Source of the DNA: Rossellomorea aquimaris
GTDB lineage: Bacteria; Bacillota; Bacilli; Bacillales; Bacillaceae_B
Length of the DNA stretch: 64,000 nt
Assembly: GCF_000935355.1 (NCBI RefSeq)
Contig: NZ_JXZC01000006.1
Location: 1 to 64,000 of the forward strand
Direction: 5' to 3'
The translations under genes and the position numbers were made by a program. Shown here piece after piece: positions 18,195 to 33,355 of the stretch. Positions within the stretch are counted from its first letter, which is position 1, and the number at the start of each line of letters is the position of its first letter. Below the pieces are notes generated by a model. The model worked only from the letters and a program-made list of their open reading frames with translations. It was not told the DNA's origin and did not search any database.

Positions 18195-18453
18195 AAATAA
18201 TCACGAAAAGCAATGAACAGGAAGAGTACATTGATTCTTACTTTCAGAGAGGAAAATCGTTTGCTGAGAGATTTTCTACGTTAAGACAATGGAAGGTCGC
18301 CTGGAGAGCTGTTTCTATGAATAACAGTAGTAGAAGCCGGTTAAAAGCCGTTATTGATTGTCGAGAGTTCAGGAAGCTTATTTTTCCTGAGAAAAAAGGT
18401 GGTACCGCGAATGGAATCCTTCGTCCTTTTCATAGGACGGGGGATTTTTTTAT
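18195..18453 (+). ncRNA. T-box leader controlling valS (specifier GUC)
   Basis: tRNA-sensing riboswitch that allows transcription of valS when uncharged tRNA(Val) binds. Stem I holds the AGTA-containing internal loop (GAAGAGTACA), the distal arm, and GGAAGGTCGCCTGGAG, in which GTC at 18296-18298 is the likely specifier codon for valine. The conserved T-box sequence AAGGTGGTACCGCG spans 18397-18409. A terminator stem (AATCCTTCGTCC with GGACGGGGGATT, then TTTTTTT) ends the leader; its left arm overlaps the competing antiterminator region. Confidence 0.95.
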
Positions 18454-22709: not shown

Positions 22710-24422
22710 ATGACATTATCAGTAAAAAAGAAGCTGTACATATTGCTGGCCTGGCTAGCCCTTGTACCTGCTGGATTGTATTTTACATATCAGAACTATC
22801 CTCCTGAAAATATTGCAGGAAATGAGCTGGAGCTTTTAACCTTAGTGGCTTTTGCCACCTTTATCCCACTTATGCCCATTGTGATAAATGGTGCCACCAT
22901 TTTCTTCATCCAGTGGGTGACCCTCGTAGGGTTTATAAAGTATGGATTATTTATTGAGATCGTCCTCATGCAATTCTCTATTATCCCATTGCTTATCCGA
23001 CTCAGGCTGACCAAAACCGATTGGCATAGAATTCCCTTGAATTCAGTGATGTTCTTTCTTGTTTCGTTAGTGAGCGGCCTCATCTATTTTCTATTTGGTG
23101 GAGAAGTGGGATTAAGGGATATCGGTCAATTACTATTTCCGATTCTCAGTTATCAAATCGTTTCGATCATGATCAATCAAATTCTACTTTTGTTGTATCA
23201 ACACTATGTAGTGAACAATGATGTCCGGTTTTACAGCAAGGATTTCGTTTGGGACTTTACCGCAAACATGATCATGTTCCCTCTCTCATTATCTCTCTAT
23301 TATTTAACGTTTGAACTGGGAGCCTTCGCTTCTCTATTGATCGGTATCCCTTTTGTGAGCTTATCGATCATCTTAAAGCTCTATAACTCTTCTGAAAAAA
23401 TCAATGAATACCTTCAAAAAGCGGGTGAAATCGGTCACCAATTAACGGAAAGCCTGAAAGTAAAAGAAGTGCTTGATATATTCATCGAGAAAATCATTGA
23501 GACCCTGCCCGTTGAGTATGCATATATCCTTGATTGCCAGGATGAAGAACTTGTTCTCTTAAGGCGTGTAGAAAATGGTGAAATGAAGGCGAATAACCTG
23601 CGTCCCTTAAAGAAAAGCCAGGGAATCAGCGGTGTAGTGTGGGAAACCGGGACGTCCGTCCTTTATACTTCCCGATCTGAATGGACCGACATCGCTGAAG
23701 GGTATATGCCCGATGGAGTGGAAAGCGTTTTGTGCGTTCCCATTGTAAGAAGCCAAAAGGTAAGAGGGATTCTTCTATTGGCCTCTTCCAAAAAGAAAGC
23801 CTATGAAAAATATCAATTGATGATCGTCGATATTTTATGTTCCTATTTAGGGGTGGCAATCGCAAATGCAAGGCACCATGAACGGACGAAGAAAAACAGT
23901 GAAAGATGCGCCCTGACAGGACTATACAATTACCGCTATTTTGAAGATCTCCTGTCGCTGGAGTTCAATCATCTCGATGCTGGGAAAAGACAAAGTCTCT
24001 CTCTCATCATGCTCGACCTGGATCACTTTAAGGTGATTAACGATAACTATGGTCACCAGAGCGGTAACGAAATCCTGATTGAACTTGCCGACCGCCTTCG
24101 CACCCTTATTGATTCAAGGGGGACAGTTGCGAGATATGGAGGGGAGGAATTTGTCATCCTTCTTCCGGATACGAAACGGGATGAAGCACTCCGACTTGCT
24201 GAGCATGTGAGAGGTGCGATTGCCAATGAGCCCTTCACCCTCCATGACAGCCTGGACGAATCCAACAAACGAATGATGGTCAGGATCACAGCGAGTATCG
24301 GGGTCTCGACCGCACCGGAGGACGCCGATGATACGCTTGCTCTTATCCGCCATGCGGATCGGGCATTATATACAGGTGCCAAGCAGGCTGGGCGGAATCG
24401 GGTGGCTCAGTATGTGAAATGA
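22710..24422 (+). CDS. Membrane-bound GAF-GGDEF diguanylate cyclase
   Basis: Predicted to make c-di-GMP from two GTP at the membrane. Residues 1 to about 215 form roughly six transmembrane helices with no catalytic motif, a likely sensory anchor. A GAF domain spans about 245-390. The C-terminal GGDEF domain (about 395-570) opens with ALTGLYNYRYF, has DLDHFKVINDNYGH and the active-site GGEEF at residues 477-481, so it should be active. The inhibitory I-site RxxD expected just before GGEEF is not present (the residues read DSRG). No EAL domain. It has its own promoter and terminator and lies directly before the pilus cluster, whose PilB carries an MshEN-type domain. Confidence 0.93.
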   Translation: MTLSVKKKLYILLAWLALVPAGLYFTYQNYPPENIAGNELELLTLVAFATFIPLMPIVINGATIFFIQWVTLVGFIKYGLFIEIVLMQFSIIPLLIRLRLTKTDWHRIPLNSVMFFLVSLVSGLIYFLFGGEVGLRDIGQLLFPILSYQIVSIMINQILLLLYQHYVVNNDVRFYSKDFVWDFTANMIMFPLSLSLYYLTFELGAFASLLIGIPFVSLSIILKLYNSSEKINEYLQKAGEIGHQLTESLKVKEVLDIFIEKIIETLPVEYAYILDCQDEELVLLRRVENGEMKANNLRPLKKSQGISGVVWETGTSVLYTSRSEWTDIAEGYMPDGVESVLCVPIVRSQKVRGILLLASSKKKAYEKYQLMIVDILCSYLGVAIANARHHERTKKNSERCALTGLYNYRYFEDLLSLEFNHLDAGKRQSLSLIMLDLDHFKVINDNYGHQSGNEILIELADRLRTLIDSRGTVARYGGEEFVILLPDTKRDEALRLAEHVRGAIANEPFTLHDSLDESNKRMMVRITASIGVSTAPEDADDTLALIRHADRALYTGAKQAGRNRVAQYVK

Positions 24423-24430
24423 ATCCGGAG

Positions 24431-24460
24431 AACACCTTCCTGCATGGGGAGGTGTTTTTT
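24431..24460 (+). terminator. Terminator after the diguanylate cyclase gene
   Basis: AACACCT pairs with AGGTGTT, extended inward by TCC/GGG pairs, then six T. The cyclase gene is thus probably transcribed separately from the pilus operon. Confidence 0.8.
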
Positions 24461-24684
24461 GTATGAACGAAAATTATGACTTTTCTTCTATTTTTTTCTA
24501 TTAATAACAGATAGTAGCTTTTCATTTGCAAGTGTATATACTAAAATAGTAGTAGTCGAATTTTGTTAATTTTCATCGAATTATACTTCTAAGTTCCTAC
24601 TTCAACAAAATTTAAATCAGCTTTCAATCATTCTTCAAAACATCTAAAAACCAATAAGGAAAATGTAAAAAAGGGGCATCTGTG

Positions 24685-25740
24685 ATGAGTAAAAGAATAC
24701 CTATTACAAAGCTATCCGTATTTTTAGTGTTATGCAGCATAGGTTTATTCAGTCTTGCTCATCTGGGTGCTTTTGCCTATGATCGCTTGCTATCACCGAC
24801 TCAACCCGTTTCCGATAGTGGAATGAAAGACGTGGCCGGTCTTTCTGATCAAAATCCAGAAGACAAACGAGGTGGCGAGACTCATGCCGCGTCCATTGAA
24901 ACCATTTCGGAGGTCAACGTAAAAAGTCTACCATTAACACCGGGGCTTCAGCAGTTCATTGATTCGTACCCTGAGATTGTAATAGGAGGGACCTCACCGT
25001 TTTCCTTACTGGAGTTTATTGAAGGGGAAGGATTCACTGGAGCAACTGACCAGGATCTCAGCACTCTCGCTTCATATCTTTATGAGCTGATACTGCCGAC
25101 AAACTTTGAGGTGATTGAGAGAAATCAGAGCAGGGGGCTTCCTGATGGTATTGAATTAGGATTGGAAGCTTACATAAATAAAGAGCAGGATAAGGACTTT
25201 GTTTTCTCAAATCCTAACGATGGATCTTATACGATCATACTTCAATGGCAAGGAGATGTGCTTTCCATCTCACTGAAAGGTGCCGAACTTCCATATAGGG
25301 TGACCGTGGATCGACGGAACGAGCAGTCATTTAAACCGAAAGTGATCAAGCAGTACAGCCCATATTTACATTTAGGTGAAATAATGGTGACGGAAGAAGG
25401 CCGAAATGGCATGCAGGTTGAAGTATGGAGAAGCTTTCAGACGATGAAGGGTGAACTTCTCAAGGAAGAGAAAGTATCAGAAGACTTTTACCTGCCCGTT
25501 CATAAAGAAGAGTTACATAGTATGAAAGATTACGTGGCAGGGGAAGCGGTCGATGTTTCAGGGGCGGATGAAACGACTTCTGAGGTCGGAGAGCAGGTAT
25601 CCCAGGGGAGCTCAAATCCTCAAAAGAGTCCATCTAATCAAGAGGAAGAAGAAAAGTCGGATTCAAATTCTGCTTCACAGAAAGAGGAGTCCAATGCTTC
25701 TTCTTCTGAAAAGGATCTACCAGTGACCGATATGAAATAA
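24685..25740 (+). CDS. VanW/G5-like surface protein at the head of the pilus cluster
   Basis: 351 aa with an N-terminal membrane anchor or uncleaved signal (about 8-32). The central part resembles a VanW domain: DLSTLASYLYELIL, then FEVIERNQSRGLPDGIELG, KDFVFSN and a strand-rich ILQWQGDVLSISLKG. After it, LGEIMVTEEGRNGMQVEV looks like a G5-type domain. The last 70 residues are low-complexity, rich in Ser, Glu, Lys and Asn, like a wall-spanning tail. Both domain calls are by eye. The canonical VanW GGxCQVSSTLY signature is degraded. ATG at 24685 after AAAAAGGGG. Its stop is 25 nt before pilB, so it is probably co-transcribed with the pilus genes; its job is unknown. Confidence 0.65.
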   Translation: MSKRIPITKLSVFLVLCSIGLFSLAHLGAFAYDRLLSPTQPVSDSGMKDVAGLSDQNPEDKRGGETHAASIETISEVNVKSLPLTPGLQQFIDSYPEIVIGGTSPFSLLEFIEGEGFTGATDQDLSTLASYLYELILPTNFEVIERNQSRGLPDGIELGLEAYINKEQDKDFVFSNPNDGSYTIILQWQGDVLSISLKGAELPYRVTVDRRNEQSFKPKVIKQYSPYLHLGEIMVTEEGRNGMQVEVWRSFQTMKGELLKEEKVSEDFYLPVHKEELHSMKDYVAGEAVDVSGADETTSEVGEQVSQGSSNPQKSPSNQEEEEKSDSNSASQKEESNASSSEKDLPVTDMK

Positions 25741-25765
25741 GAAAATGACAGGCAGGCGGGATAGC

Positions 25766-27424
25766 ATGGCGCAAGAGCGGAAACGTTTAGGCGATTTATT
25801 AGTTGAATCAGGTTTGTTGACAGAAGAAAAGCTTCAAACGGCTCTTAGGGAAAAAGGGATCGATCAGAAGCTGGGAGATGCAATTTTACAAAAAGGATAC
25901 ATTACGGAGCAGCAGCTGATTGAAGTGCTGGAGTTTCAACTGGGCATACCTCACGTCAGCTTATTTCGATACCCGTTTGACCCAAAGCTGTTTCATTTGA
26001 TTCCAAAAGAAGTGGCCAAGCGGAACCTCATCATCCCGTTAAAAAAAGAAGGAGATAAGCTGTTCGTGGCGATGGCAGATCCAATGGATTTCTACACGAT
26101 CGAGGATCTGAGATTGTCCACTGGATTCTATATTGAGACATCCATCGCAACAAAGGACGATATCCTCCGTTCAATCAATAAGTATTACGATATGGATGAA
26201 AGCTTTGAAGAGTTGAAAGGGATGGGGAATGAGCCTCCTCCATTAGAGGACGAAGCTTTGACAGATCAGGACTCCCCCATCGCGAGACTCGTCAATCAAT
26301 TGCTATCCAATGCCATGACGCAAAAGGCGAGCGATATCCATATCGATCCCCAGGAAACAAAAGTACATATACGCTACCGGGTGGACGGCATCTTACGGAC
26401 AGATCGATCCCTCCCCAAGCATATGCAAAGTATGCTGACGGCCCGCATCAAAATCATGTCTCAATTGGATATCACGGAGCACAGGGTACCTCAGGATGGA
26501 AGAATCAAAACGAACATCGATTTCCGCCCGATCGACTTAAGGGTATCCACACTTCCGACAGTGTATGGGGAAAAGATCGTCCTCCGTATACTGGACCTGA
26601 GTTCATCGTTGAATGACCTGGGGCAGCTTGGTTTCAACAGCTTGAACCTTAAACGATTTCAGGACCTGATTGATCGGCCCACCGGGATCGTGCTTATTAC
26701 AGGTCCCACTGGTTCAGGTAAATCTTCCACTCTGTATGCAGCCTTGAACAAGCTGAATAGTGAAGAGGTCAATATCATTACCGTCGAGGATCCGGTTGAA
26801 TATCAATTGGAGGGGGTCAACCAAATCCAGGTGAACACCAATGTCGGCCTTACTTTTGCTGCAGGCCTCAGGTCCATCCTGAGACAGGATCCCAACATTA
26901 TCATGGTGGGGGAAATCCGTGATAGAGAAACGGCTGAAGTAGCGATACGAGCCTCGTTGACGGGACATTTGGTTCTCAGTACGATCCATACGAATGATTC
27001 CTTGAGTACCGTGACCCGCCTGATCGATATGGGGGTCGAGCCCTTCCTGGTCGCGACTTCCGTCAGCGGAATTGTCGCTCAACGGCTTGTCCGGAAGGTG
27101 TGCCGGGATTGTGCACAGGAAGAAATCCCCACAGTGAGGGAGAAAGAAATCTTTGATCGCAGAGGCATGACCATCGAAAAGGTCATCCGTGGCAGAGGGT
27201 GTGCTTCGTGCAATATGACGGGCTATAAAGGAAGAATGGCCATTCATGAAGTGCTGGTCGTAAACGATGAAATGAAGAGGATCATCATGAACAATGAATC
27301 CCTTTCCACTTTAAGGGAAGTTGCCATCAATCACAAAACCATTTTTCTTTTGGACGATGGATTGTTTAAGGTGAAGCAGGGATTGACGACGACAGAGGAA
27401 ATACTGCGTGTAGCAATAGAGTAA
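25766..27424 (+). CDS. pilB: PilB/GspE-type pilus assembly ATPase with MshEN domain
   Basis: Cytoplasmic hexameric ATPase that drives pilus extension. The N-terminus (about 1-65) reads KRLGDLLVESGLL, then LGDAILQKGYI and FQLGIPHVSL, the pattern of an MshEN (T2SSE_N) domain; MshEN domains of this type bind c-di-GMP in other bacteria. The ATPase part has Walker A GPTGSGKSS, Walker B ending IIMVGEIRD, the His box LSTIHTNDS and a tetracysteine zinc site (CRDC and CASC). The ATG at 25766 gives 552 aa and places the RLG motif at residues 6-8; the ribosome site (GGCGGGA) is weak. An earlier ATG at 25745 has no ribosome site. Confidence 0.92.
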   Translation: MAQERKRLGDLLVESGLLTEEKLQTALREKGIDQKLGDAILQKGYITEQQLIEVLEFQLGIPHVSLFRYPFDPKLFHLIPKEVAKRNLIIPLKKEGDKLFVAMADPMDFYTIEDLRLSTGFYIETSIATKDDILRSINKYYDMDESFEELKGMGNEPPPLEDEALTDQDSPIARLVNQLLSNAMTQKASDIHIDPQETKVHIRYRVDGILRTDRSLPKHMQSMLTARIKIMSQLDITEHRVPQDGRIKTNIDFRPIDLRVSTLPTVYGEKIVLRILDLSSSLNDLGQLGFNSLNLKRFQDLIDRPTGIVLITGPTGSGKSSTLYAALNKLNSEEVNIITVEDPVEYQLEGVNQIQVNTNVGLTFAAGLRSILRQDPNIIMVGEIRDRETAEVAIRASLTGHLVLSTIHTNDSLSTVTRLIDMGVEPFLVATSVSGIVAQRLVRKVCRDCAQEEIPTVREKEIFDRRGMTIEKVIRGRGCASCNMTGYKGRMAIHEVLVVNDEMKRIIMNNESLSTLREVAINHKTIFLLDDGLFKVKQGLTTTEEILRVAIE

Positions 27425-27438
27425 AGAAGGTGTATGAC

Positions 27439-28476
27439 TTGAAGGAACGGATAGATCATCTATTACGGGCGGCATTTGAATTAAAGGCCTCTGATATTCA
27501 TTTAACAGTAGGATCGGCACCGGTTTTCCGCATTCATGGAGACTTGAAGAGGTATGGGCAGGATGTGCTGAAGCCGGAAGATACAGAGCAAATGGCTAAA
27601 GCCATTGTTCCCGATCATTTATGGACGGAATTCAAGGAGCGGGGGGAATTGGACTTTTCTTATGCACTCCCAGGTGTCTCGCGATTTCGTGTGAATGCCT
27701 ATTTTCAACGATCTTGTATTTCGATTGCCTTACGGGTTGTGCCTGGGAATATTCCGACCCTGGAAGAACTGAAGCTCCCGCCTGTTTTAATGAAAATAGC
27801 AGAAAAGCATCAAGGGTTGGTGTTAGTGACCGGGCCGACCGGAAGCGGGAAATCGACGACCCTCGCTTCGATGATTCATTATATGAACCAGACGATGAGG
27901 AAGCATATCATAACGCTTGAGGATCCGATAGAGTACTTACATACGCACGGTTCTTCCATCATTGATCAACGGGAAGTCGGGTTTGATACAAAGTCCTTTG
28001 CATACGGATTGCGGAGTGCATTGAGGCAGGACCCCGATGTCATTCTGGTAGGGGAAATGCGTGACCTGGAAACCATTCAAACAGCCATCACAGCAGCCGA
28101 GACCGGTCATTTAGTCCTGGGGACCCTGCATACGTCCAGTGCCGTTTCGACAATCGAGAGGATCATAGATGTATTCCCGGCCGAACAGCAATCCCAGGTC
28201 CGGGTTCAGCTAGCATCGGTTCTGCAGGGAGTGATTGCTCAGCGCCTCCTGCCTACGGTTGATAAAAATGGAAGGATTGCTGTCTCGGAAATCCTTTTGA
28301 ATAATTCAGCCGTTGCCAATCTTATCCGGTCCGAAAAGATTCATCAAATTCCCTCTGTTATGCAAACCTCTAAAGCGCAGGGAATGGAGCTCTTTGAATC
28401 GAATGTCAGCAGATATCTGCACGCCGGTATGATTTCAATTGAAGTGGCATCTCCATTTCTTCAGGAGAACCGTTAA
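27439..28476 (+). CDS. pilT: PilT, pilus retraction ATPase
   Basis: Retraction motor for type IV pili, absent from the B. subtilis competence system; its presence implies pili that retract. The N-terminal ASDIHLTVGSAPVFR, Walker A GPTGSGKST, Walker B VILVGEMRD and the PilT-type His-box stretch LVLGTLHTSSA are visible, as is the C-terminal AIRNLI-like element NLIRSEKIHQIPS. Start TTG 27439 lies 8 nt after AGAAGG and gives 345 aa; a GTG at 27430 overlaps the ribosome site. Confidence 0.93.
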   Translation: MKERIDHLLRAAFELKASDIHLTVGSAPVFRIHGDLKRYGQDVLKPEDTEQMAKAIVPDHLWTEFKERGELDFSYALPGVSRFRVNAYFQRSCISIALRVVPGNIPTLEELKLPPVLMKIAEKHQGLVLVTGPTGSGKSTTLASMIHYMNQTMRKHIITLEDPIEYLHTHGSSIIDQREVGFDTKSFAYGLRSALRQDPDVILVGEMRDLETIQTAITAAETGHLVLGTLHTSSAVSTIERIIDVFPAEQQSQVRVQLASVLQGVIAQRLLPTVDKNGRIAVSEILLNNSAVANLIRSEKIHQIPSVMQTSKAQGMELFESNVSRYLHAGMISIEVASPFLQENR

Positions 28477-28478
28477 AG

Positions 28479-29690
28479 ATGAGCAGATTCAGGTACGAAG
28501 GACGAGACAAAAAAGGGAAGAAAAAAGGCCACATCACGGCTCCCACAAAAAAAGAGGCCATGCTCAGGCTGAAGAATCAAGGCATCCGCATCATTTCAGT
28601 TGAGGAAATCCCGGAGACTCTACTGACGAAAGAGATTACTTTAGGGAACCCTGTCAAGCTTCAGCACATGGTGATTTTTCTCAGGCAATTCTCTACTCTA
28701 TTGAAAGCGGGGGTCACCGTGGTGGACGCGACCCGCATTCTCGGCAGTCAAACAGATAGTAAAGCTTTGACGAAAATTCTTACGGACGTAGAAATGGAAT
28801 TGAGGGAGGGACATCCCCTTTCCGAGGCATTCGGCAAGCATAAGAAAGTGTTTGAGCCCCTCTTCATCAATATGCTGAAAGCCGGGGAAGCAACGGGGAG
28901 TCTGGATGAAACCCTGGAAAGACTCGGAGATCACTATGAAAAGCAGCATGGTACCCGGCAAAAAGTGATTGCGGCCCTGTCCTATCCTGCAGTGGTCGGT
29001 GTCATCGCCATTGGGGTGGTCATCTTCTTACTGGCAGCTGTCGTGCCGACTTTCGTGGATATGTTTGACGATTTCGGGGGAGAATTACCGTTAATCACGA
29101 GATTCGTCCTAGGGGCAAGTGAAACCGTGCAGCGTTTTTGGTACCTTCTTTTATTCCTTGTTCTGCTCATGATCACAGGAATCGCAATGGTAAGACAGAG
29201 AAAAGAGTCAAAATACTATCTGGATTACTTTTTACTGCGCATCCCAATATTCGGCAAACTACTCCAAAAAGCGGTTTTAGCCCGCATGACAAGGACATTG
29301 AGTTCCCTATTCTCAAGCTCGGTTCCCATCCTTCAGTCCCTGGCCATCGTCGAACGGGTTGTGGAAAATGAAGTGATTGCGGCGGTTCTCAAAGAATCGA
29401 GAGAATCACTGGAAAAAGGCGGAACGTTAACGGAACCCATGAAAAAACACTGGGCCTTTCCCCCCATGGTCTCACAAATGATTTCCATCGGAGAAGCAAC
29501 GGGATCACTTGACAGCATGCTTTCCAAGGTGGCGGACTTCTACGAAAAAGAAGTGGAAAACTCCACAGATCAACTTAAAGCACTGATAGAGCCACTCATG
29601 ATCGTCCTATTGGCGGGACTTGTCGGCACGATCGTAACAGCCATCATGATCCCAATGTTTGAAATATTTAACAATGTACAAAAATTCTAG
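28479..29690 (+). CDS. pilC: PilC, inner-membrane platform protein
   Basis: Polytopic protein on which PilB and PilT act. Two T2SSF repeats are visible, each beginning with a cytoplasmic bundle: FLRQFSTLLKAGVTVVDA and MTRTLSSLFSSSVPILQS, with the signatures MLKAGEATGSLDETL and MISIGEATGSLDSML. Three transmembrane helices occur near residues 165-195, 215-240 and 370-395. 403 aa is the normal PilC length. The start lies 2 nt after the pilT stop, so translation is coupled. Confidence 0.94.
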   Translation: MSRFRYEGRDKKGKKKGHITAPTKKEAMLRLKNQGIRIISVEEIPETLLTKEITLGNPVKLQHMVIFLRQFSTLLKAGVTVVDATRILGSQTDSKALTKILTDVEMELREGHPLSEAFGKHKKVFEPLFINMLKAGEATGSLDETLERLGDHYEKQHGTRQKVIAALSYPAVVGVIAIGVVIFLLAAVVPTFVDMFDDFGGELPLITRFVLGASETVQRFWYLLLFLVLLMITGIAMVRQRKESKYYLDYFLLRIPIFGKLLQKAVLARMTRTLSSLFSSSVPILQSLAIVERVVENEVIAAVLKESRESLEKGGTLTEPMKKHWAFPPMVSQMISIGEATGSLDSMLSKVADFYEKEVENSTDQLKALIEPLMIVLLAGLVGTIVTAIMIPMFEIFNNVQKF

Positions 29691-29749: not shown

Positions 29750-29806
29750 TAGGTAGATTAAAAGAGTACTAAAGTACTACATAAGGTTATGGGAGGAAAT
29801 GAAAAC

Positions 29807-30253
29807 ATGTTGAAGAAAATGAAAAAGATGTTGAAGAATGAGAGAGGTTTGACCCTGGTCGAGCTTCTTGCTGTTATTGTGATTTTGGGGATTATTGCGG
29901 CGATTGCTGTGCCGAGTATTGGGAATATTATTGAGAAGTCACGTGCGGATGCAGTTAAAGCTGAAGGAATTCAAGTCTTAAATGCGGCAAAATTATATGT
30001 TTCTTCAGAAAGTATTCCAGAGGATAAAACATTAGAAGCTACTGATTTAGAAGACTATCTTGAAGAAAATGATGACATTATGGAGTCAGGATATTCGGTA
30101 ACTGTAAATGATGATAATACATTAACTTTAAATGGTACCGGTACTAAAGGGAGTGTAACTATAAAATTTGCAAATGCTTCTGTAAGGGATATTAATGATG
30201 CAAAGAGAGATGCAGAAACTATCCCAGCTCCTGCACCTAAAGAAGGAGAATAA
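29807..30253 (+). CDS. Type IV prepilin (major pilin)
   Basis: 148-aa precursor with a 14-residue basic leader ending in KNERG, cleaved before LTLVELLAV. Gly(-1) and Glu(+5) needed for processing and assembly are present, followed by a hydrophobic helix of about 25 residues. The mature protein is about 134 aa; its C-terminal half is acidic and lacks cysteines, so no disulfide-bounded D-region. The ATG at 29807 lies 10 nt after GGGAGG; an earlier in-frame ATG at 29789 would put the ribosome site within the gene. The conserved 5' third and the AT-rich variable remainder differ visibly in base use. It is the only pilin gene in the cluster. Confidence 0.92.
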   Translation: MLKKMKKMLKNERGLTLVELLAVIVILGIIAAIAVPSIGNIIEKSRADAVKAEGIQVLNAAKLYVSSESIPEDKTLEATDLEDYLEENDDIMESGYSVTVNDDNTLTLNGTGTKGSVTIKFANASVRDINDAKRDAETIPAPAPKEGE

Positions 30254-30262
30254 TTTTAAAGA

Positions 30263-31006
30263 GTGATAATCCTTATTATTTTCTACGCACTCCTCCTAGG
30301 CTCCTTCTACAACGTAGTCGGCCTACGGGTGCCGTTAAAGAAATCCATCGTAAAGCCAAGGTCAAGCTGTCCGTATTGCCGTCATCAACTGACTGCCATC
30401 GAGCTGCTCCCTGTCTTTTCTTATCTCATTCAAAAGGGGAAATGCCGCCGGTGTCAAGGGCGCATTTCTCCTTTATATCCGTTTATGGAAGCTTTGAATG
30501 CTAGTCTATTTGTCCTGGCGTATCTGGAGTTTGGATTCGTATGGGAGCTCCTTGTGGCATGGACGCTCATTTCATTGTTCATCATCATTACGGTTTCTGA
30601 TTTAACGTATATGGTCATCCCTGATAAAGTCCTTTTGTTTTTTGGGGGGATTTTTTTGCTGGAACGCCTGTTTATTCCCCTGACCCCGTGGTGGGATGGT
30701 CTGGTCGGTGCCGCTGTTGGCTTTGGGCTCCTTCTTCTTATCGCCATCGTCAGTAAAGGCGGGATGGGTGGAGGCGATATCAAGCTTTATGGAGTCATCG
30801 GTTTCGTTGTCGGATTGAAGGTCACGGTCCTGTCCTTTATGCTGGCAACCTTCTTTGGAGCGGTCTTTGGCTTGATTGCACTGGCATTCAAAGTGATCGA
30901 AAAAGGGAAGCCGATTCCGTTCGGGCCGTTCATCGCTTTAGGGACCATCCTTGCTTATCTGTATTACGATAGCATCCTATCCGCTTATCTATCTTTTTTC
31001 TATTAA
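30263..31006 (+). CDS. comC: Prepilin leader peptidase/N-methyltransferase (PilD, ComC)
   Basis: Polytopic aspartyl protease that cleaves and N-methylates type IV prepilins. The N-terminal methylase part has the two zinc cysteine pairs CPYC and CRRC; the peptidase aspartates are in SDLTYMVIPD and MGGGDIKLYG. About seven transmembrane segments, 247 aa. Starts at GTG 30263 with a weak ribosome site, only 9 nt after the pilin stop. It holds the position of comC in B. subtilis, between folC and spoIIB, so it may process both this pilin and any ComG pseudopilins encoded elsewhere. Confidence 0.93.
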   Translation: MIILIIFYALLLGSFYNVVGLRVPLKKSIVKPRSSCPYCRHQLTAIELLPVFSYLIQKGKCRRCQGRISPLYPFMEALNASLFVLAYLEFGFVWELLVAWTLISLFIIITVSDLTYMVIPDKVLLFFGGIFLLERLFIPLTPWWDGLVGAAVGFGLLLLIAIVSKGGMGGGDIKLYGVIGFVVGLKVTVLSFMLATFFGAVFGLIALAFKVIEKGKPIPFGPFIALGTILAYLYYDSILSAYLSFFY

Positions 31007-31027: not shown

Positions 31028-31999
31028 ATGGGTTTACTATCGTTTCTCTCTAGCAGCAAAAAAACATCCAATATCGTGTTTACAGACAATTCCATCCGCT
31101 TTCTAGAGGTGAAGCAGACTTCTCCACTACTGGTTCAGGCATTTGGGGAGCGCTCCCTTCCTGACGGAGTCATCAAAGGTGGGAGGATCATGGATGTACA
31201 GACTCTATCATTTATTTTGGAAGAATGTATAGAGGAGTGGGGAATTAAAGGAAAATCGATCCGATTTGTCGCACCCGATCCGTTTGTTGTGGTACGAAAA
31301 GTGACGATTCCCCTTGATCTTAAAGAGGATGAAATAGAGGGGTACTTGTTTTTGGAAATTGGTACAAGCATTCATTTACCTTTTGAGGATCCTGTTTTTG
31401 ATTTTGCTTTATTGGGTGAAGTGCAGGACGGCAGGGAGGTTCTTTTGATCGCATCTCATCAGGAAGTGGTGGATAGCTACAAAGACGTCCTGGAGGATGC
31501 GAAATTGAAGCCTGTTGTTGCAGATATTTCCCCCCTCGCTCTTTACAGATTATCAGTGGAGCAAGGGTCCGTTTCACCACATGAGCATACAATGTTCCTG
31601 CATTTTGATGAGAGATTATTAACCATCTCCATTTTCCGGGGACATAAACCGATCTTTACAAGACCGATTGTGTTGGAGCAGGAAAATAAGAATGTATTGA
31701 TGGAAGAGCATCTCTCTTGGAGAAATGTCGAAGATGCGTTCAGTGAAATAGAGAAAGTGATGAACTTTTATCAGTATTCACTCCATAAAGGGGAGTTCTC
31801 TGTTGAACGGGCTCTCATTAGTGGAGATCATCCGAATATAAATGAGATTGATAGATATATAAAGGAAAGACTCAGCATCCCCGTCGGCTTTCACCGTCTG
31901 GAAGGGATCAACACGGTGAATGACGGGAAGATACCCGGTAAGTTTGCCATAGCCCTGGGTCTCGCGCTAAAAGAGGTGCAATATGTTGAATCTCATTGA
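31028..31999 (+). CDS. pilM: PilM, actin-like cytoplasmic pilus assembly protein
   Basis: Cytoplasmic actin/FtsA-like protein of the pilus alignment complex that binds the N-terminal tail of PilN. The start region NIVFTDNSIRFLEVK resembles phosphate-loop 1 of PilM, and VRKVTIPLDLKEDEIEGYL matches the typical region after it. LISGDHPNINEID is the second nucleotide-site strand. 323 aa. The last 17 bases overlap pilN. Confidence 0.85.
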   Translation: MGLLSFLSSSKKTSNIVFTDNSIRFLEVKQTSPLLVQAFGERSLPDGVIKGGRIMDVQTLSFILEECIEEWGIKGKSIRFVAPDPFVVVRKVTIPLDLKEDEIEGYLFLEIGTSIHLPFEDPVFDFALLGEVQDGREVLLIASHQEVVDSYKDVLEDAKLKPVVADISPLALYRLSVEQGSVSPHEHTMFLHFDERLLTISIFRGHKPIFTRPIVLEQENKNVLMEEHLSWRNVEDAFSEIEKVMNFYQYSLHKGEFSVERALISGDHPNINEIDRYIKERLSIPVGFHRLEGINTVNDGKIPGKFAIALGLALKEVQYVESH

Positions 32000-32600
32000 T
32001 ATTAACCTATTGCCAGAAAAAGAAAAGAAGAATTCCGTGTTTGTTTATAGTATCGCTATCATTCTTTTCGTCTTTTTTATTTCATGTCTATTCTTCTTTT
32101 TTTCTCTTCGAAGTGTTCAAACGGAAACGGAAAGAACTCTTGAATCAATCTCTCAAACGAAAAAAATCATTGACGCACAGCAAACCAAACTGCTTGATTC
32201 CGAGTCTTCCCAAGGAGCGCGGCAGCTTGAGGAAACCATTGAATGGATGACAAATTATCCAATCGAGACAGTTCCTGTACTCAATGAGCTGATCTCGTTA
32301 CTTCCTCCCCGCGGTTTCATTCAGACCTTTGAATATAGTGGGAGACAATCGATTAATGCTTCTATACAATTTGATTCATCCCGGGAAGCAGCCTATTATT
32401 TGCATCATTTAAAGGAAGTAGAATGGATGAAAGAAGCGGAAATCCTGGAAATCACGACAAATAATATGACCTCTGAAGAAATGGGCTGGGGTGAAAGTGG
32501 AGTGGTCCCCAGGTATCTGGCTGATTTTTCACTTTCCCTTGATTTAATTAAACTTCAAGAGTTAGATGACACCTCCTTAGAAGAGGAGGTCGGGGAATGA
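31983..32600 (+). CDS. pilN: PilN, pilus alignment-complex membrane protein
   Basis: Bitopic protein whose N-terminus starts LIDINLLPEKEKK, matching the INLLP motif that PilN inserts into PilM. One transmembrane helix (about 20-42) is followed by a coiled-coil region and a small periplasm-side (here wall-side) domain. 205 aa. Overlaps pilM by 17 bases and pilO by 4. Confidence 0.86.
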   Translation: MLNLIDINLLPEKEKKNSVFVYSIAIILFVFFISCLFFFFSLRSVQTETERTLESISQTKKIIDAQQTKLLDSESSQGARQLEETIEWMTNYPIETVPVLNELISLLPPRGFIQTFEYSGRQSINASIQFDSSREAAYYLHHLKEVEWMKEAEILEITTNNMTSEEMGWGESGVVPRYLADFSLSLDLIKLQELDDTSLEEEVGE

Positions 32601-33355
32601 TATCAGCACTGAACAAAAAAGAAAGAATGCTTTTAATAGGAATGACGTCAGCGTGCCTCATTACCCTGTTTCTCTTTTATTTCTTCGTCTATTCTCCTCA
32701 AAAAGACAGGCTGAGGGTTACACATGAGGGACTGAAAACAGAACAAAAGATTTTAGCGGCAATCGAAAAAAAGACCTCTCAAATAGAAAATCATTCATAC
32801 AGGGATACTAAAAGTTTGCAAGGGCAGATCCCCGTCGATCCGCTGACGGAACAGCTCATCCTTCAGCTTGAAAAAGCGGAGGTGAGGTCACAAAGTACCA
32901 TTCAATCTATGAGCTTTTCGAAGGAAGACTTCCTGTTTTTCAGTGAAGAAAATGAAGATCCCGCCCCGGGAGATGGAGGAGAACCTCCAGTGGAGCAAGT
33001 GACGGACGGGGACACTTCTTCTGTAAAGAGATTACAGATTACCATGACAGTAGAATCGGAGAACTATTTTGCCATGGAGAAGTTCATTAGTGAATTAGAA
33101 AATCTTGAACGGATAGTAGAGATCAATCAACTTGTGTTTGAAGGAAAGGAAGAAATGAGCCCCGTACTGGATGGGGGGCAGCCTCAAGCTTTAAGCTATC
33201 AACTGGTGGCTTCTGCTTTTTACTTACCCGGACTTACGGATTTACAAGACAGTGTGCCTTCCATTGATAGTCCGTCTCCTTCGATGAAGAAGGATCCTTT
33301 TATTCAGTATACGGATCCATCCATGACAACGAATGACAGTGACAATGAAAACTAA
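32597..33355 (+). CDS. pilO: PilO-like pilus alignment-complex protein
   Basis: 252 aa with a short cytoplasmic tail (LNKKERMLL), one transmembrane helix (about 13-33), a coiled coil, and an outer domain likely of the ferredoxin-like PilO fold. The insert at about 115-145 is acidic and the C-terminus is Ser/Pro/Asp-rich. Identity comes mainly from position after pilM and pilN and from topology; sequence similarity is low, as usual for PilO. ATGA overlap with pilN. A terminator follows and ends the pilus operon. Confidence 0.75.
   Translation: MISALNKKERMLLIGMTSACLITLFLFYFFVYSPQKDRLRVTHEGLKTEQKILAAIEKKTSQIENHSYRDTKSLQGQIPVDPLTEQLILQLEKAEVRSQSTIQSMSFSKEDFLFFSEENEDPAPGDGGEPPVEQVTDGDTSSVKRLQITMTVESENYFAMEKFISELENLERIVEINQLVFEGKEEMSPVLDGGQPQALSYQLVASAFYLPGLTDLQDSVPSIDSPSPSMKKDPFIQYTDPSMTTNDSDNEN

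Follow-up and report, generated by a model that had tools for sequence, protein, structure and literature searches.

The window analysed here, a stretch of 64,000 nucleotides from Rossellomorea aquimaris, encodes a putative diguanylate cyclase and, downstream of it, a type IV pilus cluster. The relevant features are as follows.

22710..24422, + strand: diguanylate cyclase with six predicted transmembrane (TM) segments, a GAF domain and a GGDEF domain with GGEEF; no RxxD I-site
24427..24460, + strand: intrinsic terminator directly 3′ of the cyclase, predicted from folding
24682..25740, + strand: VanW/G5-like protein of 352 aa, encoded ahead of pilB, with a single TM segment at its N-terminus
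25745..27424, + strand: PilB extension ATPase with N-terminal MshEN domain (559-aa ORF; alternative start at 25766)
25784..25939, + strand: MshEN c-di-GMP motif of 52 residues, RLGDLLVESGLLTEEKLQTALREK-GIDQ-KLGDAILQKGYITEQQLIEVLEFQ
25853..25855, + strand: codon for Lys where MshE has Gln32, by alignment to MshE
27430..28476, + strand: PilT retraction ATPase (TIGR01420, 481.5 bits; cut-off 319.1)
28479..29690, + strand: PilC (Pfam T2SSF, 215.5 bits)
29789..30253, + strand: PilA-like prepilin (N_methyl, 30.9 bits)
30263..31006, + strand: prepilin peptidase PilD (A24_N_bact and Peptidase_A24)
31028-31999, + strand: PilM, from family matches
31983-32600, + strand: PilN-like, named by position only, with no family match
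32597-33355, + strand: PilO-like, from position and a T2SSM match below cut-off

Genes on the + strand are arranged in the order valS, folC, cyclase, VanW/G5-like, pilB, pilT, pilC, pilA, pilD, pilM, pilN, pilO, SPOR-like, maf and radC, where valS, folC, SPOR, maf and radC are names given by recognition of the sequences. The SPOR-like gene after pilO occupies the SpoIIB position. The best NCBIfam match of PilB is TIGR02538 (PilB; 619.3 bits, under the equivalog cut-off of 675.65) and that of PilC is GspF (388.8 bits, under the GspF equivalog cut-off). This PilB/GspE-type ATPase is encoded with PilT, PilC, a prepilin, PilD and PilM, a gene set that identifies it as a type IV pilus PilB, and the nearest pilB loci (L001-L003) share 85-94% identity with it. 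The original prediction had PilB at 25766, where there is indeed an ATG (MAQERKRLG), but this codon is internal and the ORF opens at 25745. It also described the cyclase as next to pilB; the two share a neighbourhood, but the VanW/G5-like gene and the predicted terminator lie between them. The VanW/G5-like protein scores below both Pfam cut-offs (VanW 25.3 bits, cut-off 27; G5 20.7 bits, cut-off 23), has a homologue in 68 of 80 pilB loci, no more than 0.5 kb ahead of pilB, and may help the pilus to pass across the thick wall.

The cyclase ORF (22710-24422, 570 aa) contains RYGGEEF, confirming the predicted intact GGEEF, and has Pfam matches to GGDEF (143.3 bits) and GAF; the N-terminal part with the six TM segments has no Pfam match at E <= 0.001. 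GGEEF occurs in 78 of the 79 aligned cyclases, window included, the exception being a truncated copy at locus L010. The RxxD inhibitory site, located by its usual spacing, is missing from the window cyclase (DSRG there) and from all 78 readable sequences, window included, among the 79 aligned. The enzyme is probably active, membrane-anchored and free of I-site feedback. The segment at 24424-24460 has a predicted folding energy of -19.2 kcal/mol (z -4.3), a stability that none of 200 shuffles reached, and a consensus scan lists a shorter stem, 24436-24452, at the same terminator. With so strong a predicted terminator directly 3′ of the gene, the cyclase is predicted to be on a separate transcript from pilB. 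A promoter scan of the window found 32 candidates against a shuffle mean of 25.4, near background, so none is claimed. No c-di-GMP riboswitch was matched in the window at the Rfam gathering threshold, only a T-box and an L21 leader; the T-box leader (18204-18431) precedes the valS-like ORF, where one would be expected.

Across the genome, profile searches identified 6 GGDEF, 5 EAL and 1 PilZ domain matches in total, and the sole MshEN c-di-GMP motif genome-wide is that of PilB. A three-gene minor-pilin operon (L150:5963-7953, contig C12) lies outside the pil cluster and adjoins a histidine-kinase-like gene. A GGDEF-EAL gene 5.5 kb away was considered as a cyclase partner for these relocated minor pilins and rejected, as other genes lie between.

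That PilB begins with an MshEN module holds at the level of the family, with 54.5 bits against NF053729 (MshE-related, c-di-GMP-binding; curated cut-off 38), a Pfam MshEN match of 75.7 bits and the overall MshEN fold predicted, but the motif is not canonical. In the receptor consensus the motif (R/K/L)LGxx..L...L..Q occurs twice, the copies being separated by a 5-residue spacer, and Lys is permitted at the motif start. In PilB motif II is complete, while motif I ends in Lys and the spacer has four residues. The comparison with MshE that had been proposed, made here by alignment to the MshE structure (PDB 5htl), recovers most of the contact residues: R9, L10, G11, L25, L29, L39, G40, L54, L58 and Q61 are retained and Lys replaces Arg38, but Gln32 is missing. 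With numbering from Arg9, Lys occupies position 32 and the linker before motif II has 4 residues, against 5 in MshE. In the HMMER alignment the gap falls one residue earlier and position 32 becomes Glu, so Gln is missing under both alignments. The predicted helix alpha2 of PilB stops at residue 29, directly ahead of the Lys.

These features recur among 81 PilBs (the window and 80 loci). At position 32, 77 of them have Lys and 4 (L022, L023, L064 and L080) have Gln; the linker has 4 residues in 79 and 5 in 2, and motif II is directly preceded by Gln in 77. At the eleven contact positions (R9, L10, G11, L25, L29, R/K38, L39, G40, L54, L58 and Q61) the commonest residue averages 95%, compared with 77% at other motif positions. 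The contact positions are retained to a similar degree whether the locus has an intact cyclase (38 loci) or lacks one (16 loci, L010 included; 26 loci left unclassified), so the PilB motif does not depend on the 22710 cyclase.

The shortened motif extends across the order. Among the 150 matches listed there, 144 are full-length once 6 partial ones are left out; the length is 52 residues in 135 of these and 53 in 9. Among 118 full-length matches listed outside the order, partial matches again left out, it is 53 in 115, and 51, 52 and 55 in a single match each. A 52-residue motif in 135/144 matches within the order and 1/118 outside marks this form as a property of the order, with Lys at position 32 read in the 81 PilBs only and the 135 order-wide matches scored by length. 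In a phylum control, 26 of 30 loci could be parsed (7 of the same 30 with a narrower motif pattern), all with Gln and a 5-residue linker; these 30 are best-scoring matches and therefore biased to canonical motifs, so motif length over full-length matches is the less biased control. What is new is an order-wide MshEN with a short linker and, in 77 of the 81 PilBs read, Lys in place of Gln: neither the Lys variant nor this cyclase-pilB linkage was found described in the open-access literature searched.

We surveyed 199 genomes of the order, of which 94 have both cyclase and MshEN, 19 the cyclase only, 56 MshEN only and 30 neither. The two co-occur above independence (odds ratio 2.65, p 0.0046, Fisher test, uncorrected for phylogeny), but not exclusively: 19 of 113 cyclase genomes are without MshEN, meaning without an NF053729 match, so that a motif-less PilB could still exist elsewhere in them, and 56 of 150 MshEN genomes are without a cyclase orthologue at E <= 1e-80, a threshold that may overlook diverged orthologues. 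Each gene is lost independently of the other. MshEN positions are listed for 90 of the 94 co-occurring genomes. In 75 of them the cyclase precedes MshEN in the same orientation, at a distance of 1.4-14.1 kb; in the remaining 15 it is farther off, on the opposite strand or on a different contig.

The surroundings of the cyclase were examined in these 15 and in all 19 cyclase-only genomes. In 34/34, folC lies upstream on the same strand; the distance is 1.6 kb in L113 and at most 0.33 kb in the other 33. None of the 34 fetched stretches around the cyclase contains a match to PilB, PilT or PilC; the contig of L100 stops 0.5 kb after the cyclase, so there a pil cluster could lie across the break. 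All 19 cyclase-only genomes retain GGEEF, and in all 19 the block extends as far as one or more of pilD, SPOR, maf and radC. Three loci (L084, L091 and L094) have further pil matches, among VanW, PilA, PilM, PilN and PilO, without pilB. Conversely, L010:4402-5070 is a truncated folC-linked cyclase, reduced to its membrane part, that adjoins an intact pil cluster with pilB. Since the gene is found at folC with or without pilB nearby, it behaves as a member of the folC block. Between cyclase and pilB, an opposite-strand match to the minor pilins of the R. aquimaris genome occurs in 23 of 38 cyclase-bearing loci; none was found there in the other 15, which include the nearest relatives L001-L003. 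We infer that a minor-pilin operon was lost from this position, and with minor pilins between the two genes elsewhere and on another contig here, the closeness seen in the window is probably derived.

We therefore favour, with a probability of about 0.6, a reading in which PilB is a c-di-GMP-responsive extension motor with an order-specific MshEN, and the cyclase is a conserved folC neighbour that feeds a general pool and is not dedicated to PilB. A dedicated local circuit, in which a membrane signal acts on the 22710 cyclase and the adjoining PilB receives c-di-GMP directly from that enzyme, was the central claim of the original prediction and now appears improbable. The uncorrected co-occurrence and the 1.4-14.1 kb linkage in 75/90 genomes leave room for coupling, and the available text of PMC8669469 describes precedents: in E. 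coli the cyclase DgcJ works locally on the MshEN effector NfrB, and in some Pseudomonas a cyclase gene adjoins the nfr genes. Against this, the cyclase stays by folC wherever pilB was not seen nearby, keeps its GGEEF in genomes without MshEN, is missing from more than a third of the MshEN genomes at the threshold used, and is predicted from the terminator to have its own transcript. It is also broken beside the intact pilB of L010, and the 2 of 113 cyclase matches that are partial or interrupted (G099 and G105) both come from MshEN-bearing genomes.

We also think it unlikely that the variant MshEN has ceased to bind c-di-GMP and is merely a structural module of PilB. Gln32 is lost and the linker shortened in nearly all 81 PilBs, with the motif shortened order-wide, and Gln32 is one of two residues that Roelofs et al. 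use to choose candidate receptors, the Q32A change in MshE costing 61% of binding (both as given in the available text of PMC4624772). XpsE and PilF GSPII-A, both non-binding, share the fold, and XpsE fits the PilB model as well as MshE does. In the accessible part of PMC11731258, GSPII-A has His at the Gln position among other changes, and restoring its binding needed Gln among other changes. Yet R9, G11, K38, G40 and Q61 are each the commonest residue in 84-100% of the 81 PilBs, unlike in XpsE, for which the portion of PMC5013675 available reports several changed contact residues, and the replacing Lys is itself 95% conserved. Moreover, single Gln mutants of PilF GSPII-B are reported still to bind: the Q190E protein has a KD of 950 nM, compared with 6 nM, and its complex was crystallised (PDB 9GL5; PMC11731258, same part). 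Because single Gln-to-Glu mutants still bind and the other contacts are conserved, PilB is probably, by analogy, a retuned receptor of the general pool. The proposal that PilB is a c-di-GMP receptor remains credible, with the qualification that Lys stands in for Gln32.

Under the favoured reading of PilB as a receptor of the general pool, the 22710 cyclase, lacking I-site feedback, would contribute c-di-GMP to that pool. A rise in cellular c-di-GMP would then be bound by the variant MshEN, most likely with sub-micromolar to micromolar affinity, and the bound PilB would promote pilus extension. More tentatively, the pocket may have been rebuilt order-wide, the conserved Lys, together with the Gln before motif II and the shorter linker, replacing Gln32 as a phosphate contact; such an asymmetric site could have its own affinity or ligand preference and so set the c-di-GMP threshold for extension.

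If the variant binds, the consensus by which c-di-GMP receptors are recognised becomes wider, and pili would by default probably be under c-di-GMP control in this order of Bacillus relatives, where the open-access literature searched offered only predictions of such control. If it fails to bind, curated annotation over-calls receptors in this order, since the variant scores above the cut-off. In either case, the synteny at this locus is a warning that the conservation of a cyclase next to pilus genes can arise as a side effect of a housekeeping-gene block.

Among described systems, MshE of Vibrio cholerae (PDB 5htl) has Gln32, a 5-residue linker and Arg38, where the window PilB has Lys, 4 residues and Lys. 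PilB2 of Clostridium perfringens, which we liken to it by description, is also the PilB of a Gram-positive type IV pilus; as cited in the available text of PMC6958937, it binds c-di-GMP, and surface pilin there is c-di-GMP-driven. Paenibacillus thiaminolyticus Mbale resembles the window in having an MshEN-PilB within a pil cluster in a Bacillus-like Gram-positive bacterium, and the part of its description available (PMC9765702) names the cluster of Bacillus sp. NRRL B-14911 as similar; the motif is called perfectly conserved there, whereas motif I is altered in the window. In the DgcJ-NfrB system the effector is a glycosyltransferase, whereas here it would be PilB, and the synteny at this locus speaks against a similarly local action of the cyclase.
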